DNA from: an uncultured Flavobacteriaceae bacterium
Lineage (GTDB): Bacteria; Bacteroidota; Bacteroidia; Flavobacteriales; Flavobacteriaceae
NCBI GenBank assembly: GCA_947493535.1
Contig: CANLRK010000004.1
Span: forward strand, 160,950-224,949
DNA length: 64,000 nucleotides
Direction of reading: 5' to 3'
Under the pieces are notes generated by a model. It saw nothing but the letters and a program-made list of their open reading frames with translations. It did no database searches and had not been told where the DNA came from. Positions within the stretch are counted from its first letter, which is position 1; every line of letters starts with the position of its first letter. The translations under genes were made by a program, and so were the position numbers. Of the stretch, positions 14,550-25,087 are shown piece after piece.

Positions 14550-14741
14550 CATTGTATATAGCAAATAGGGCTTCCAGTGGTTTTAGAAAGTTCAGAGCTA
14601 TTTACCAACACCGCCAAATCGTTGATTTGGCTTTTAAGAATGATTAAATTAAAAACAAAATACAACGTTTTGGCTCAGTGCAAACTTGATACTTTATCTG
14701 TATCTTGTCCCCTACTTGCCATATACTAGACGTTAGCCACC
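14542..14741 (+). repeat. Cassette junction site B (attC-like, 200 nt)
   Basis: Left arm GCCACTAAC (14542-14550); right arm GTTAGCCACC (14732-14741). The inner stem pairs GTATATaGCAAaTA with TAcTTGCcATATAC, with two A/C mismatches. A secondary hairpin GCCAAATC/GATTTGGC is at about 14611-14629. The two arms of this site agree only in GTTAG, whereas each is fully complementary to the far end of its own unit. Confidence 0.75.
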
Positions 14742-14760: not shown

Positions 14761-15708
14761 ATGAATTGTATAATATGTGACAAAACCGCTAATGCCAAAG
14801 GCTCTCACATTGTTCCAGCAAGTCTAATTAAGAATTGCGTGGGGAAACACTACAAAGAAGAGTCTTACGAAATAGACTCTAATAATTCTTCGATAAACAC
14901 ATATTTCGGAAGAGATAATCTGAAAAATACTTCTACTGAAATTAAACAGAATCATTACAAAAGAGATTTTGTTCTATGTCAAAAATGTGAAGATGAATTA
15001 GCGAAATTGGAAAGCGAAATAGCTGTTAACTTTCTACAAAAATTTAGAGAAGAAAAATACTCGAATAATTTTGAGGAATTGAATTTAGAAAATGGTTTTG
15101 AAATGATTATTCCGAAAAAAACGAGTAACAAAACATTTCTTGCCTACTTCTACTCGATAATATTAAGAGAATGTAAAACATTAGAGATAGAGGATAATAT
15201 GCAGATTTTATCAAATGAAGAAACTGAAAATATTAGAAAATTTGTTTTTGGCTATCTGTACAATGAAGATAATGATAGTTCTATCGAGAATTACAAATTG
15301 GTAATAATCTTTGACAAATATTGCAACAAAGGTTCATTTGTTGCAACATCAAACGAATTTGAAAAACCTTACTTATTTTATTTTTGCGAGGCTATTATTC
15401 AACTATTTACTTCTAATCCAGATGATTTAGGAAATTATCTATTTAAAGAAACCTTTAATGACATAAAACAAACGAAATCCAAAATATTAGTTGGTCCGAA
15501 AGAGTTTTATGCTACTTTGAGAACGAAAATGGCGGAAAAACTTGCTGACACTTTTATGACAAAAGGGATTTTAAAAATCTGTGAGTTGAATGGAAAAAGT
15601 TATGATGAAAACTTGATTGAATATCAAAAATTCATTGAGAATTCAAAAGAGAAAATAGAGAATAAAATGATTGCTTTAAACAAACTGATAGAAAAATACG
15701 GTGGCTAA
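14761..15708 (+). CDS. HNH-like zinc protein, cassette unit 3
   Basis: The 315-residue protein starts MNCIICDKTANAKGSHIVP and has a second cysteine pair, CQKCED, near residue 74. The C-x2-C ... SHIVPASLI ... C-x2-C layout resembles treble-clef HNH-type nucleases, with His17 as a possible catalytic residue, though the classical HNH core is not complete. The remaining 230 residues are helical and unassigned. It may be a nuclease effector, as many cassette and defence genes are, but this is inference. It starts 29 nt after the GTT of junction B, and its TAA stop is inside the left arm of junction C (GGTGGCTAAC). Confidence 0.7.
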   Translation: MNCIICDKTANAKGSHIVPASLIKNCVGKHYKEESYEIDSNNSSINTYFGRDNLKNTSTEIKQNHYKRDFVLCQKCEDELAKLESEIAVNFLQKFREEKYSNNFEELNLENGFEMIIPKKTSNKTFLAYFYSIILRECKTLEIEDNMQILSNEETENIRKFVFGYLYNEDNDSSIENYKLVIIFDKYCNKGSFVATSNEFEKPYLFYFCEAIIQLFTSNPDDLGNYLFKETFNDIKQTKSKILVGPKEFYATLRTKMAEKLADTFMTKGILKICELNGKSYDENLIEYQKFIENSKEKIENKMIALNKLIEKYGG

Positions 15709-15737
15709 CAAAGAACTGAGCTAAAAACCAAATAATT

Positions 15738-16703
15738 TTAACTTAATTTAGATACAAAGTTCTCATCATAAGCCAACCCACTTTTCACAACAGCAAATGC
15801 TTGTTTCAATAGCTTATTACAAACTGCTATTAATGCTAATTTTTTGCTCTTACCTTTGGCAACTATTCTATCGTAAATCCCTTTACAAGCTTTGTTATGA
15901 ATACAAGCTGTAAACGAACACATAAACAACAGGTTTCTAAGCTTTTTATTTCCAACTTTGCTTATCCTACTGCGACCTCTAACACTACTCCCTGATTTTC
16001 GTATTGTAGGAGTTATTCCTACATAGCTACATAACTGACTTGCCGTTTCAAACTTCTTAAAACCGTCCGTTATAACAATTAAAAACAATGCCGTTTTATT
16101 TCCTAAACCTGGGATAGTTTTTAATAAACTTAATTCTACTTGATGTTCTTGTTTTACCAAAGACATTAAATGGTCTTCCAATAACTTCATCTCTTTTTTT
16201 AAATGCTTTAATTCTCGTTCTAAAGATTTAAATACAATTTTCGAGGGTACTCCTAACACTTTCTCTCCATGCAATTTATTCTTAGTAGCAGTTAACTTTT
16301 TTTGATAGCTATCTAAAAGTCTAAATATTTGCAAACATTCTGCTTGAATGGCATTTAAACTAGTATACAATGGAACATCATTAAATTTAGCATAGTCATA
16401 AATCGCTTTTGCATCGCTCTTGTCTGTCTTTATCTTAGCTAATTTCATCTGTAAAAAACGTTTTACTGATAAAGGATTTACTACCGAAACACAAACCCCT
16501 TTACTAACTAAATACTGGGCTAACATATAGTGATAATAACCCGTGGCTTCCATCACTACTAAAGTGTTCTTGTCTATTTTTTTAAGTAAAGAACTAAAAC
16601 CCTTAACAGAATTACTAACCTGAAAATGACCCAAATTATCATTGTAAATATCTAAAACAGATTTACTAACATCAACACCAAAAATTTCTGTAACTTTATC
16701 CAT
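15738..16703 (-). CDS. IS110-family transposase (DEDD type), copy 1
   Basis: The 321-residue recombinase has an N-terminal RuvC-like DEDD domain, opening with IFGVDVSKSVLDIY (Asp11), with VVMEATGYYH (Glu near 53) and KTDKSDAKAIYDYAK (Asp near 97-100). The C-terminal Transposase_20 region has LLKTIPGLGNKTALFLI and FETASQLCSYVGITPTIRKS; a conserved Ser in the RKSGSSVRGRSRISKVGNK segment is the expected nucleophile. The gene is intact and appears identical in protein sequence to copy 2, which indicates recent transposition. It should work with the bridge RNA in its leader. Confidence 0.95.
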   Translation of the reverse strand: MDKVTEIFGVDVSKSVLDIYNDNLGHFQVSNSVKGFSSLLKKIDKNTLVVMEATGYYHYMLAQYLVSKGVCVSVVNPLSVKRFLQMKLAKIKTDKSDAKAIYDYAKFNDVPLYTSLNAIQAECLQIFRLLDSYQKKLTATKNKLHGEKVLGVPSKIVFKSLERELKHLKKEMKLLEDHLMSLVKQEHQVELSLLKTIPGLGNKTALFLIVITDGFKKFETASQLCSYVGITPTIRKSGSSVRGRSRISKVGNKKLRNLLFMCSFTACIHNKACKGIYDRIVAKGKSKKLALIAVCNKLLKQAFAVVKSGLAYDENFVSKLS

Positions 16704-16916
16704 AAGAAATCATTTTAATGAAAGAGTAAATCCACATATTAATCAACATCTTAAAAACGAGATCCAAGGTCTCAAAGAACTGAACGATTTAACTGTGGAA
16801 AAGAGAGGGGATTATCATTGTTGACGAATTTTTATATTCTACGTATATCTTAACCTTAATCCTCTCTTTTTCTCTTTCTTAATTTATATCTAATTTAGTA
16901 AAGTATAAACTTAAGA
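16704..16916 (-). ncRNA. Candidate IS110 bridge RNA, copy 1
   Basis: IS110 elements place a guide RNA in the long non-coding leader upstream of the transposase. Here the leader holds CAAAGAACTGA (16773-16783), identical to the left IS boundary (15709-15719), as expected of a donor loop. It also holds CATTGTTG (16816-16823), the reverse complement of the target CAACAATG. The latter sits in an internal loop closed by AAAAGAGAGGGGATTA (16799-16814) and TAATCCTCTCTTTTT (about 16857-16871). Exact RNA ends are unknown. Confidence 0.6.
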
Positions 16917-17184
16917 TGTATATAAAACATAGCTAATATAGGCTTCACCAAAGGTTTTTGTATATTTACGAAGAACGCCAAATTTTTAAATTTGGCTTTT
17001 TGAGAAAATTAAGATAAAAAGAAAAATTTAAAAATTCGGCTCGTGTATAATCCGGAAACGACAGCTTATTTTAACACGCTACGTTTCATATACGGAGACG
17101 TTGTGCATAATGCAAAAAATCGTTCTAAAATTCAACATTTGAACTAAAAAAGCCAACCGCACAAACAGCACATTTATTTTTTTT

Positions 17185-20867: not shown

Positions 20868-21070
20868 TATGCACAACAATGTATATAAAACATAGCTATT
20901 ACAGGCTTTCCGAGAGGTTTTTGCTTCTCTATTAAGTCCACCAAATTTTTATTTTTGTATATTTAAAAAATTAAAGATAAATAGAAAAAATAAAAATTTG
21001 GCTCGTGTATAATCCGAAAAGTTAGTGTTTATTTATACGCTACGTTTCATATACTAGACCGTTGTACACA
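20868..21070 (+). repeat. Cassette junction site D (attC-like, uninterrupted)
   Basis: Left arm TATGCACAAC (20868-20877) then AATGTATATAAAAC; right arm GTTGTACACA (21061-21070). Inner stem TATATaAAACaTAGC pairs with GCTAcGTTTcATATA; both mismatches are A opposite C. The site shows what sites C and F looked like before the IS110 insertions. Much of its length is shared with site C. Confidence 0.78.
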
Positions 21071-21803: not shown

Positions 21804-23750
21804 ATGAAAAGAGACTTAAATCGAGTAGTATTTTATTCCAAACAAGATTTATCAGGTGATAGAAACTTACAAAACGCAGAGCCAATAATTGAGAACTATG
21901 ATTCTTCAAAAATCTACGGAATTAATGAGGTTTTAGAGTTGTATCAAATAAAACTCTATTTTGACAATGAACTATATCGCAGAGTTTGGAATAAAAAAAC
22001 TAAAGAAAAATATATTTCAATTGTAGACAAATTTTGGAGTACAATTACTTCATTTTACACAAAGGTCTCTAGCGAGAATATTGCGAACTACTTTGAATCA
22101 ATTGATTATCAGTATTACGATTCATTTTGGACTTTATTAAGTCAATTAAACACTTATAAAAAGATTTCATCAAATAGCCTGCAAGAAATATTAAAAAGCA
22201 ACAGATTTCATATAAGACAATTATTAAAACAAAAGAATTTAGTAAACCAATTTTCAAGCATCATTAAATCCTATCTTTTAGATTCAACAGAATCGGCTGA
22301 ATTGTTACTCTCACAGTTCGAAGAAGAACACGTTTTATCTGAAAAACCTAAACTATTCTTTCCAAACTCGTTAAAAGATTCTGACAAGGAATCAATGATT
22401 TTAAAATATCTAGATTCACCAAACGCAAATTTGAATTATGTTAAGCTAGTTATTAATTCAAGAACATTAAAACTATCAGATAAAACTAAACTCAAGGCTA
22501 AAAGATTAGAAAAAAAGCAGAATGATGAATTTTTCGAGAAAGGTTCAGGAACTACAAATCGCGTTCAAGTTTCATTATCAAAAGACCAAGTCGAACCTTA
22601 TAAATTGGAAAACAAGAACGGTCAATTAACTCACTGCTATTCTGAAAAGTGGCTTGATGCCACCAAATCAAATGAATATATTTTTAGAAACTTTTCGTTT
22701 TTATTTAGATACATTAATGCACAAGGTTGTATAGAATTAGTAAGTAAAACTCACGAAATTGATTCATTTGAAAGAACTTTTATGCGTTCAAAAAATGAAT
22801 ACTTAATTAGTTTTAGGTTTCACGGTAAAGCTTTATTGTCTCACATACAATTAGCATTATATCTACACTACTTAAATGAAAATGAAATAAGCCTTGAAAA
22901 TGTCTTATCTCATCAGGTAAATGAAGTTTTAAATGAAAAGTTTGACATAAAAGGTTTAACCATTTCTTTCGCATCAGAAAACGCATCACCTTTAGAAAAG
23001 ATAAGATTTATTGCACCAGAATTAGAGTTCCTAATTAAGCAATACCAATGTTATATAGAAGAAGGCTTTATTGACTTTGATTTAATTAAAATCAGTTCCT
23101 CTCAATTGCATTTAAGCAAAGTTAAAAGTAAACTTCAAAAGAAATATATTTATGGACAAGGAGAAGAGTTTTTAAGGTTAAAACATTACTTCTTTTCGGG
23201 CAACTCAATGCTCTATTACATTGAACCGTTTAAAGAAAAGTATCGTACATTTTATCAACTTCTAACAAGCGAAAACATTGGTTATGATGATTTTCAAGAT
23301 TATCAAAAAGGAGATATTGACTATTTAATATCACACGAATATTTGTTTCAAGACCAAGACGGTTTTTTGAGAATTAAAAATCAAGAATTAGTTTTCGTTA
23401 TAGGCAAATTACACTATGAGGATGTTTTAAGTTTTTGGCATTATTCCCCTGAAATAAGAAAAGAAATCCTGAATATGGAACAAAATGGAATCGTGAAATT
23501 TGACAATACCTTGTTCACAATTGAGGAAAGAAAATATTTGAATTATTATCTAAATAAAAAAGAGTTTTCAAATAGTTTAGATTTGCGGAATAAGTACTTA
23601 CACGGTACAAATTCTAGTTCAGAAGACGAACAACAGAATGATTATTTAAGGTTGTTAAAGCTCATAATTTTAATAATCTACAAAATAAAAGATGATTTAA
23701 TTCTATACGAAACGGAACAAAAAACTGGTGCCAACAAAGAACTGAGCTAA
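21804..23750 (+). CDS. Large protein with C-terminal HEPN motif, cassette unit 6
   Basis: The 648-residue soluble protein has no family I recognise over its first 580 residues, which are mainly helical. The end carries SLDLRNKYLHGT (about 591-602), an Arg-x4-His HEPN signature, set before a hydrophobic helix, as in Apea-type HEPN proteins that are abortive-infection RNases or their relatives. A defence or toxin role is plausible but unproven. The gene starts 46 nt after the GTT of junction E. Its last residues (KELS) and stop come from IS110 copy 2; without the insertion the frame would read NNV-stop, so the IS changes only the final few residues. Confidence 0.75.
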   Translation: MKRDLNRVVFYSKQDLSGDRNLQNAEPIIENYDSSKIYGINEVLELYQIKLYFDNELYRRVWNKKTKEKYISIVDKFWSTITSFYTKVSSENIANYFESIDYQYYDSFWTLLSQLNTYKKISSNSLQEILKSNRFHIRQLLKQKNLVNQFSSIIKSYLLDSTESAELLLSQFEEEHVLSEKPKLFFPNSLKDSDKESMILKYLDSPNANLNYVKLVINSRTLKLSDKTKLKAKRLEKKQNDEFFEKGSGTTNRVQVSLSKDQVEPYKLENKNGQLTHCYSEKWLDATKSNEYIFRNFSFLFRYINAQGCIELVSKTHEIDSFERTFMRSKNEYLISFRFHGKALLSHIQLALYLHYLNENEISLENVLSHQVNEVLNEKFDIKGLTISFASENASPLEKIRFIAPELEFLIKQYQCYIEEGFIDFDLIKISSSQLHLSKVKSKLQKKYIYGQGEEFLRLKHYFFSGNSMLYYIEPFKEKYRTFYQLLTSENIGYDDFQDYQKGDIDYLISHEYLFQDQDGFLRIKNQELVFVIGKLHYEDVLSFWHYSPEIRKEILNMEQNGIVKFDNTLFTIEERKYLNYYLNKKEFSNSLDLRNKYLHGTNSSSEDEQQNDYLRLLKLIILIIYKIKDDLILYETEQKTGANKELS

Positions 23751-23763
23751 AAACCAAATAATT

Positions 23764-24729
23764 TTAACTTAATTTAGATACAAAGTTCTCATCATAAGCC
23801 AACCCACTTTTCACAACAGCAAATGCTTGTTTCAATAGCTTATTACAAACTGCTATTAATGCTAATTTTTTGCTCTTACCTTTGGCAACTATTCTATCGT
23901 AAATCCCTTTACAAGCTTTGTTATGAATACAAGCTGTAAACGAACACATAAACAACAGGTTTCTAAGCTTTTTATTTCCAACTTTGCTTATCCTACTGCG
24001 ACCTCTAACACTACTCCCTGATTTTCGTATTGTAGGAGTTATTCCTACATAGCTACATAACTGACTTGCCGTTTCAAACTTCTTAAAACCGTCCGTTATA
24101 ACAATTAAAAACAATGCCGTTTTATTTCCTAAACCTGGGATAGTTTTTAATAAACTTAATTCTACTTGATGTTCTTGTTTTACCAAAGACATTAAATGGT
24201 CTTCCAATAACTTCATCTCTTTTTTTAAATGCTTTAATTCTCGTTCTAAAGATTTAAATACAATTTTCGAGGGTACTCCTAACACTTTCTCTCCATGCAA
24301 TTTATTCTTAGTAGCAGTTAACTTTTTTTGATAGCTATCTAAAAGTCTAAATATTTGCAAACATTCTGCTTGAATGGCATTTAAACTAGTATACAATGGA
24401 ACATCATTAAATTTAGCATAGTCATAAATCGCTTTTGCATCGCTCTTGTCTGTCTTTATCTTAGCTAATTTCATCTGTAAAAAACGTTTTACTGATAAAG
24501 GATTTACTACCGAAACACAAACCCCTTTACTAACTAAATACTGGGCTAACATATAGTGATAATAACCCGTGGCTTCCATCACTACTAAAGTGTTCTTGTC
24601 TATTTTTTTAAGTAAAGAACTAAAACCCTTAACAGAATTACTAACCTGAAAATGACCCAAATTATCATTGTAAATATCTAAAACAGATTTACTAACATCA
24701 ACACCAAAAATTTCTGTAACTTTATCCAT
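23764..24729 (-). CDS. IS110-family transposase (DEDD type), copy 2
   Basis: The 321-residue protein is identical to copy 1 (15738-16703) in translation, with the same DEDD motifs (GVDVSKS, VVMEATGYY, KTDKSDAKA) and the Transposase_20 region (KTIPGLGNKTALF, YVGITPTIRKSGSS). It is intact, so both copies could be active. It reads against the cassette genes and sits directly behind the HEPN gene. Confidence 0.95.
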   Translation of the reverse strand: MDKVTEIFGVDVSKSVLDIYNDNLGHFQVSNSVKGFSSLLKKIDKNTLVVMEATGYYHYMLAQYLVSKGVCVSVVNPLSVKRFLQMKLAKIKTDKSDAKAIYDYAKFNDVPLYTSLNAIQAECLQIFRLLDSYQKKLTATKNKLHGEKVLGVPSKIVFKSLERELKHLKKEMKLLEDHLMSLVKQEHQVELSLLKTIPGLGNKTALFLIVITDGFKKFETASQLCSYVGITPTIRKSGSSVRGRSRISKVGNKKLRNLLFMCSFTACIHNKACKGIYDRIVAKGKSKKLALIAVCNKLLKQAFAVVKSGLAYDENFVSKLS

Positions 24730-24942
24730 AAGAAATCATTTTAATGAAAGAGTAAATCCACATATTAATCAACATCTTAAAAACGAGATCCAAGGTCTCA
24801 AAGAACTGAACGATTTAACTGTGGAAAAGAGAGGGGATTATCATTGTTGACGAATTTTTATATTCTACGTATATCTTAACCTTAATCCTCTCTTTTTCTC
24901 TTTCTTAATTTATATCTAATTTAGTAAAGTATAAACTTAAGA
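24730..24942 (-). ncRNA. Candidate IS110 bridge RNA, copy 2
   Basis: The leader is the same as in copy 1. It carries the donor-like CAAAGAACTGA (24799-24809) and the target-like CATTGTTG (24842-24849), complementary to the CAACAATG that this insertion split (CAACAA before, TG after the element). Confidence 0.6.
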
Positions 24943-25087
24943 TGTATAACCGCAATTATGGCGGATTCGACTACGTCCGAATCCACTCGGAATTGCGAGC
25001 GTCAGTGATTAATCGAAAAATAGTAACTTAAAACCCGTAACTGACGGTTATACGAGACCGTTGTGCACAAGCTAAAGAAACTTCAGA

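Follow-up and report, generated by a model that had tools for sequence, protein, structure and literature searches.

The 213-nt leader (16704-16916) of an IS110-group transposase gene in an uncultured Flavobacteriaceae bacterium is in all likelihood the gene of a bridge RNA that guides the IS110 recombinase to cassette sites. The left target guide of this RNA and the site of insertion change together across related bacteria, and the RNA therefore very probably picks the target. The direct observations behind this explanation are the sequence, a conserved fold, covariation between the left guide and the flank, and the position of the junctions; transcription, assembly of a ribonucleoprotein, passage through a circle, the exchange of strands and what the remaining three guides do would follow by analogy with IS621. 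Coordinates refer to the window, i.e., the whole 64,000-nucleotide stretch analysed (assembly GCA_947493535.1, contig CANLRK010000004.1, positions 160,950 to 224,949 of the forward strand), except where a locus (L) or another contig is named.

The Element and Its Transposase

Two IS110-group copies, both on the minus strand, lie in the same orientation approximately 8 kb apart and are identical over 1216 bases (15707-16922 and 23733-24948). With the junctions inferred, copy 1 spans 15711..16915 (1205 bp), from the RE end AAGAACTG (15711-15718, read on the plus strand) to the LE end CTTAAG (16910-16915), and copy 2, its ends set as for copy 1 at an offset of 8026, spans 23737..24941. The RT side of the copy 1 target is the cassette-end sequence GGTGGCTAACA (15700..15710, plus strand), and the rest of the attC-like site split by this copy runs from L'' ATGTATATAAAAC to R' GTTGTGC (16916..17106, plus strand). 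An unoccupied paralogous site at 20874 could be aligned with the copy 1 flank (77% over 121 bases; alignment family D2), and as this alignment starts (16916/20879) exactly at the inferred junction, insertion without target duplication is implied. Nearly all right ends listed for relatives were CAGTTCTT.

An exact RE-LE junction, CAGTTCTTCTTAAG, was present in two of 216 loci (L040, 2987-3000; L132, 429-442), and a degenerate CAGTTCTT/CTTAAG abutment was found at the LE of L210. These natural abutments are suggestive of abutted ends, short of proof of a circle, and may represent either a circle junction or a tandem insertion. A DNA search of plasmid records returned no match. A short remnant of the transposase C-terminus (93% identity over 27 residues) was seen elsewhere in the same genome (contig 1, 425470-425550), and L208 held a mini-element of roughly 210-220 nt (about 348-563) in which an LE start, a bridge-RNA-like sequence and an RE end were present without a transposase gene.

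The transposase (15738-16703, minus strand; 321 aa) scored above the cut-offs of both Pfam PF01548 and PF02371 and matched NCBIfam NF033542, 'IS110 family RNA-guided transposase', with 204.8 bits (cut-off 140). Its match to IS621 in the PDB had an E-value of 1.1e-33, with IS621 and ISCro4 both at about 1e-33. Residues D11, E52, D94, D97 and S237 aligned with D11, E60, D102, D105 and S241 of IS621 (numbered by hand, with the IS621 chain numbers taken as native + 2), whose catalytic roles are described in PMC11208158. The protein therefore combines the DEDD RuvC-like domain with the Transposase_20 domain and catalytic serine of the IS110 family.

The element has the long non-coding region with an RNA upstream of the transposase gene that marks the IS110 group; the modelled RNA (16719-16883, minus strand) stops 15 bases short of the start codon at 16703, and just 27 bp separate the gene end (15738) from the RE end of the element (15711). 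In the IS1111-attC group the RNA lies downstream of the transposase gene, whereas the structured RNA here was upstream. Subterminal inverted repeats of 7-17 bp are a further mark of the IS1111-attC group, a group reportedly treated in Tetu and Holmes 2008 and in Post and Hall 2009.

The Leader Encodes a Conserved Two-Loop RNA

A preliminary description of the leader had named two segments, an 11-mer said to equal the left boundary of the element and an 8-mer said to be complementary to the target and enclosed by two pairing arms. Both proved to be placed correctly. The 11-mer CAAAGAACTGA at 16773-16783 equals the boundary sequence 15709-15719 and recurs in copy 2 at 24799 and 23735, the 8-mer CATTGTTG at 16816-16823 is complementary to CATTGTT(A/G), the sequence inferred for the top strand of the target, and the closing arms are present at 16799-16814 and 16857-16871. 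Dinucleotide shuffling of the leader (20,000 rounds) produced the 11-mer 0 times, the 8-mer 8 times and both together 0 times. The strand, left open by that description, follows from that of the transposase gene (15738-16703, minus): the RNA corresponds to the reverse complement of the letters as printed, and its guides read TCAGTTCTTTG and CAACAATG. Separate donor and target loops, cited there as known for IS110 bridge RNAs, were borne out by a covariation-based RNA model, the internal loops of which hold both segments rather than exclude them. The inventory was half complete, naming a single target guide and a single donor guide and missing the left target guide (16841-16849) and the probable right donor guide (16747-16757).

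A pattern search gave 72 leader rows, reduced to 66 before alignment by removal of six duplicates (L001, L023, L002, L003, L004, L025); 48 of these made up the structure alignment (A1) after 18 identical, near-identical or defective rows had been dropped by hand. RNAalifold on the 48 relatives predicted 32 pairs, 12 with double changes, and a five-pair stem added by eye brought the model to 37 pairs. The bridge-RNA-like structure (16719..16883, minus strand) consists of an outer stem, a target loop that is closed by a AAAGAGAG/CTCTCTTT stem and contains an inner hairpin, and a donor loop with the inner hairpin GAGAC/GATCTC. The target-binding loop with its closing stem occupies 16799..16871 (minus strand), where helix 2 (columns 15-24 with 79-88) was 98.1% paired; the inner hairpin of this loop (helix 4) was 99.5% paired with double changes in all four pairs. 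Pairing was poorest in the added stem (85.0% of cells), where an apparent misalignment of some rows by one column accounts for part of the shortfall.

Against simple shuffles, which ignore relatedness, compensated double changes occurred in 14 of the 37 pairs (shuffled mean 7.5), 96.7% of cells were paired (91.3%), 102 cells had double changes (25.8) and the covariation score was 0.200 (0.102), each value reached in 0 of 500 shuffles of the 48 relatives. The number of further pair types was less striking (32 compared to 29.0; 23 of 500 shuffles did as well). With one side of the structure slid out of register, pairing fell to 46-53%. The fold is therefore conserved, with the two internal loops expected of a bridge RNA, and at E <= 0.001 the RNA model (R1) had matches in 90 of the 396 Flavobacteriaceae genomes searched.

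The position of the leader directly upstream of the start codon would also suit an mRNA leader, such as a riboswitch or attenuator, in which the end-matching sequences would be promoter or repeat remnants. We regard this as next to impossible given a two-loop architecture that carries guides in its loops and covaries with the flanks; scanning the whole window against Rfam, with the gathering scores as threshold, returned two tRNAs only, neither of them in the leader.

The Left Target Guide Changes With the Site

The bridge RNA reading leans above all on the left target guide, GATATACGT in the RNA, on the 5' side of the target loop (16841..16849, minus strand). Nine guide columns, anchored on our own alignment, were compared with the nine bases preceding the LE start CTTAAG. 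The first covariation set comprised 61 of the 66 leaders, leaving out L078 (target loop deleted), L042 and L048 (contig ends) and L046 and L047 (5 nt of flank). The L078 RNA has no left target guide as a result of its target-loop deletion. Over the 61 insertions 464 of 549 letters agreed at offset 0, compared to at most 231 at eight other offsets. Among 44 unique guide/site pairs 322 of 396 letters matched (shuffled mean 239), and among 22 guide classes 162 of 198 (mean 111), with 0 of 20,000 shuffles as high in either comparison. Mutual information pointed to the same register: the collinear RNA column ranked first at flank positions -4, -5, -6, -8 and -9, second at -7 and third at -1, and was outside the top four at -2, while -3 was invariant. 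Single cases illustrate the pattern, with guide and flank both TATAGCCAT in L062 and L063, and with GTTAAACGA in L040 and TTTGAGCAT in L086 each present in the left guide and in the flank.

A second set of 60 stretches was hand-picked among the matches listed for the RNA model, and 55 were used (L164, L184, L201, L208 and L212 were left out). The 46 unique pairs agreed in 312 of 414 letters (mean 250; 0 of 20,000). This set is not fully independent, since L160, L211 and L212, at least, duplicate the records L083, L043 and L047, and the figure to use is therefore that of the 39 new pairs, in which 255 of 351 letters agreed (shuffled mean 206; 0 of 20,000 as high). The misfits in the second set were L210 (1 of 9 letters), L205 (3), and L192 and L195 (4 each); the L210 flank resembles the degenerate right end of another copy.

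Related elements share both guide and site, and simple shuffles consequently overstate independence. Guide and site could thus drift together unpaired if the hosts of each lineage had a single attC family, but shared ancestry would predict correlation and not letter identity in one register. Sister elements, which control for ancestry in part, were compared in pairs formed without reuse, with RNAs at least 80% alike and differing left guides (duplicates L160 and L211 excluded). From 36 such pairs 20 favoured co-change, 2 opposed it and 14 were ties (one-sided sign test, 6e-5). Ancestry as the sole cause is thus extremely improbable.

A recombinase that itself recognises attC-like DNA, the guide-like matches being relics or coincidence, would account for the nearly constant GTT of the site, which resembles a protein-read motif (the 116 insertions yielded 84 right ends that could be located, and in 77 of these TGTT came after the RE end). 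It would also account for the two mismatches in nine positions of the window's own left guide, which matches 7 of 9 letters at each of its two flanks, and for right flanks in L089, L090 and L096 that do not fit their right guide. We give this explanation a slim chance, as the left guide covaries with the flank position by position and in register, as this was repeated in new pairs and in sister elements, and as IS621, a relative of solved structure, is described as using a bridge RNA. A left target guide that both matches its target and covaries with it is what characterises a bridge RNA, and we retain the reading in which the RNA guides the recombinase.

The Right Target Guide and the Donor Guides

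The right target guide, CAACAATG in the RNA (16816..16823, minus strand), lies on the 3' side of the target loop and complements the inferred CATTGTT(A/G). It is nearly constant among relatives, being mostly CAACATTG or CAACAATG, and its few variants were mixed. Co-change was seen in L039 and L208, where the right guide is GAACT against a flank of AGTT (AGTTC in the flank of L208 itself, a locus absent from the second set and read by eye for this guide). It was also seen in L043, L046, L047 and L085 (guide AAACA against flank TGTTT), a case weakened by the fifth flank base, which varies freely between A and G without a change of guide. The guide kept CAACA in L089 (flank TGCTG), L090 (TATGG) and L096 (TGTTT), the flanks of which depart from TGTTG, and that of L040 fits its flank only when shifted by some bases. 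The covariation evidence for pairing of this guide with the target is therefore mixed, and its role is assigned by analogy with IS621. The preliminary view that the guide is programmed for the cassette site, which would explain the targeting, and that guide and target should change together, was supported by the left target guide (collinear, in new pairs and in sister elements); on the right guide that it had named the evidence was mixed, and the case consequently rests on the left target guide.

The left donor guide (TCAGTTCTTTG in the RNA; 16773..16783, minus strand) lies in the donor loop and is identical over 11 nt to the RE boundary (15709-15719). A probable right donor guide, TTTTTAAGATG, was assigned in the same loop (16747..16757, minus strand) by position and sequence; its TTAAG would pair with the LE start CTTAAG, and its CATCTTAA, which arose in 255 of 20,000 leader shuffles, is weak evidence on its own. 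The right donor guide and the LE start hardly vary among relatives. Co-change was found once (L042 and L050, in which both guide and end are TTAGTTCT), and one lineage was mismatched (L008, L066 and L070, end CAGTACTT against guide CAGTTCT), so that the evidence for the donor side is thin and rests mainly on position and analogy.

Target Sites and the Cassette System

In the orientation of the transposase, the typical site was TATAYACRT adjoining TGTTRNNN. Among the 114 insertions with enough left flank for the search, 70 had an AAC and then, at most 8 nt off, the complement of the left target (median 121 nt), as in an attC-like site; shuffled controls gave a mean of 11.4 and a maximum of 19, the reversed arm 5 and the unreversed complement 23. 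The other 44 had no complementary attC-like arm at that stringency, and hence most, not all, insertions look attC-like. Complementary arms with inner GTT/AAC ends correspond to a site of the integron type. A search of the element's own genome with the site pattern gave 10 matches compared to 3 for the reversed control, and the four inspected by eye (20874 and 27876 in the window and two in L121) were read as attC-like. Further attC-like ends stand between unrelated genes at 14.7-28 kb of the window, those of R' type near 14731, 17099, 21057, 25059 and 27413 and those of R'' type near 20874, 21628, 27364 and 27876.

L121 (contig 2 of the same genome, 15.8-19.8 kb) is an integron-like array of three single-ORF cassettes on one strand adjoining a 378-aa XerA-type tyrosine recombinase. 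The cassette ends are complementary across the gene (GTTGGCTAC...GTAGCCAAC; GTTGTACTAC...GTAGTACAAC; and a shorter GTTACC...GGTAAC). The recombinase scored 181.7 bits against the integron-integrase model TIGR02249, under the cut-off of 265, and passed NF040815 (recomb_XerA_Arch; 233.1, cut-off 220), which NCBI describes as 'site-specific tyrosine recombinase/integron integrase'. The TIGR02249 cut-off was passed in 0 of 59 genomes; as a discriminator this model was rejected, having matched 58 of the 59 genomes and every one of 14 control genomes at E <= 0.001. A tblastn search of the window with the L121 recombinase gave three matches (best E 2.6) and no convincing relative. In three other genomes (L123, L124, L125) an IS copy of this lineage and a homologue of the recombinase were no more than about 6 kb apart. 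Integrons have already been reported from Bacteroidota (PMC8618304, PMC9668308), and this cassette system may therefore be partly known.

Proposed Mechanism

On the model of IS621 (PMC11208158), the RNA supplied to the recombinase would have two loops. The target loop, with GATATACGT as its left and CAACAATG as its right guide, would accommodate one end of an attC-like cassette site (typically TATAYACRT adjoining TGTTRNNN); the donor loop, with TCAGTTCTTTG as left guide and a right guide around TTTTTAAGATG, would accommodate the two ends of the excised element brought together, CAGTTCTT adjoining CTTAAG. Cleavage of the top strands would fall 3' of a two-base core (TT in the donor, GT or AT in most targets), and their exchange would insert the element without target duplication. 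The two bases before CTTAAG vary, the second being T in 33 of 44 unique pairs, and these variable bases of the left product, together with nearly constant right ends, would fit top-strand exchange downstream of the core. For IS621, GT, AT and TT cores are described as also functional, the second T being almost invariant (PMC11208158).

Relation to Known Systems

Bridge RNAs of IS621 and other IS110 elements, with separate donor and target loops, are described in Durrant et al. (2024; PMC11208160) and Hiraizumi et al. (2024; PMC11208158). The former predicts bridge RNAs in 85.7% of IS110s and reports natural concordance of guide and target, and Siddiquee et al. (2024; PMC11187229) describe re-programming in nature, as well as IS1111 elements whose downstream RNA directs them to attC sites. 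With bridge RNAs, natural concordance and re-programming all published, a bridge RNA was to be expected here. As described for IS621, the present element has a recombinase of the family with aligned catalytic residues, an RNA upstream of the transposase gene, a target loop followed by a donor loop, each with a left and a right guide in matching polarity, a left target guide of about nine bases, an inferred lack of target duplication and a core whose second base is T in most sites. It differs from the published account of IS621 in its Flavobacteriaceae lineage, in the attC-like nature of most sites and in a donor core of TT instead of CT, while its donor-side and right-target roles are assigned by analogy.

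Like the IS1111-attC group (ISKpn4, ISPst6), as covered in PMC11187229, it is an RNA-guided insertion sequence at one end of attC cassette sites. The IS1111 RNA is described there as downstream of the transposase gene with its target-matching regions in reverse order, whereas the present RNA, of IS110 type, is upstream, and its attC-like sites belong to Flavobacteriaceae. The cassettes resemble those of integrons in being single-ORF and on one strand, with GTT...AAC ends, imperfect palindromes and an adjoining tyrosine recombinase (L121); unlike in classical integrons, this recombinase falls below the TIGR02249 cut-off, though it passes NF040815.

What appears to be new is an IS110-group lineage, with its RNA upstream of the transposase gene, specialised on flavobacterial attC-like sites. 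IS110-group elements in flavobacterial cassette sites were not named in the open-access literature searched, a body that leaves most subscription journals and preprints outside. The present work adds a test, with partial control for relatedness, of whether guide and target change together. A wider reading, which we offer tentatively and think rather doubtful, is that of a family-wide IS110 lineage in Flavobacteriaceae specialised by its guide RNA on the sites of integron-like cassettes run by a XerA-type recombinase. Its guides would be continually retuned to suit each family of attC sites, and two copies within one array, like the pair described here, might mobilise runs of cassettes or lock them in place.

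The relatives provide a large natural series of guides and targets for IS110 bridge RNAs, bearing on pairing rules, mismatch tolerance and core choice beyond IS621. They suggest that cassette sites are targeted by RNA in both the IS110 and the IS1111 branches, and they point to a flavobacterial integron-like cassette system with a recombinase that fails the classical integron-integrase model.
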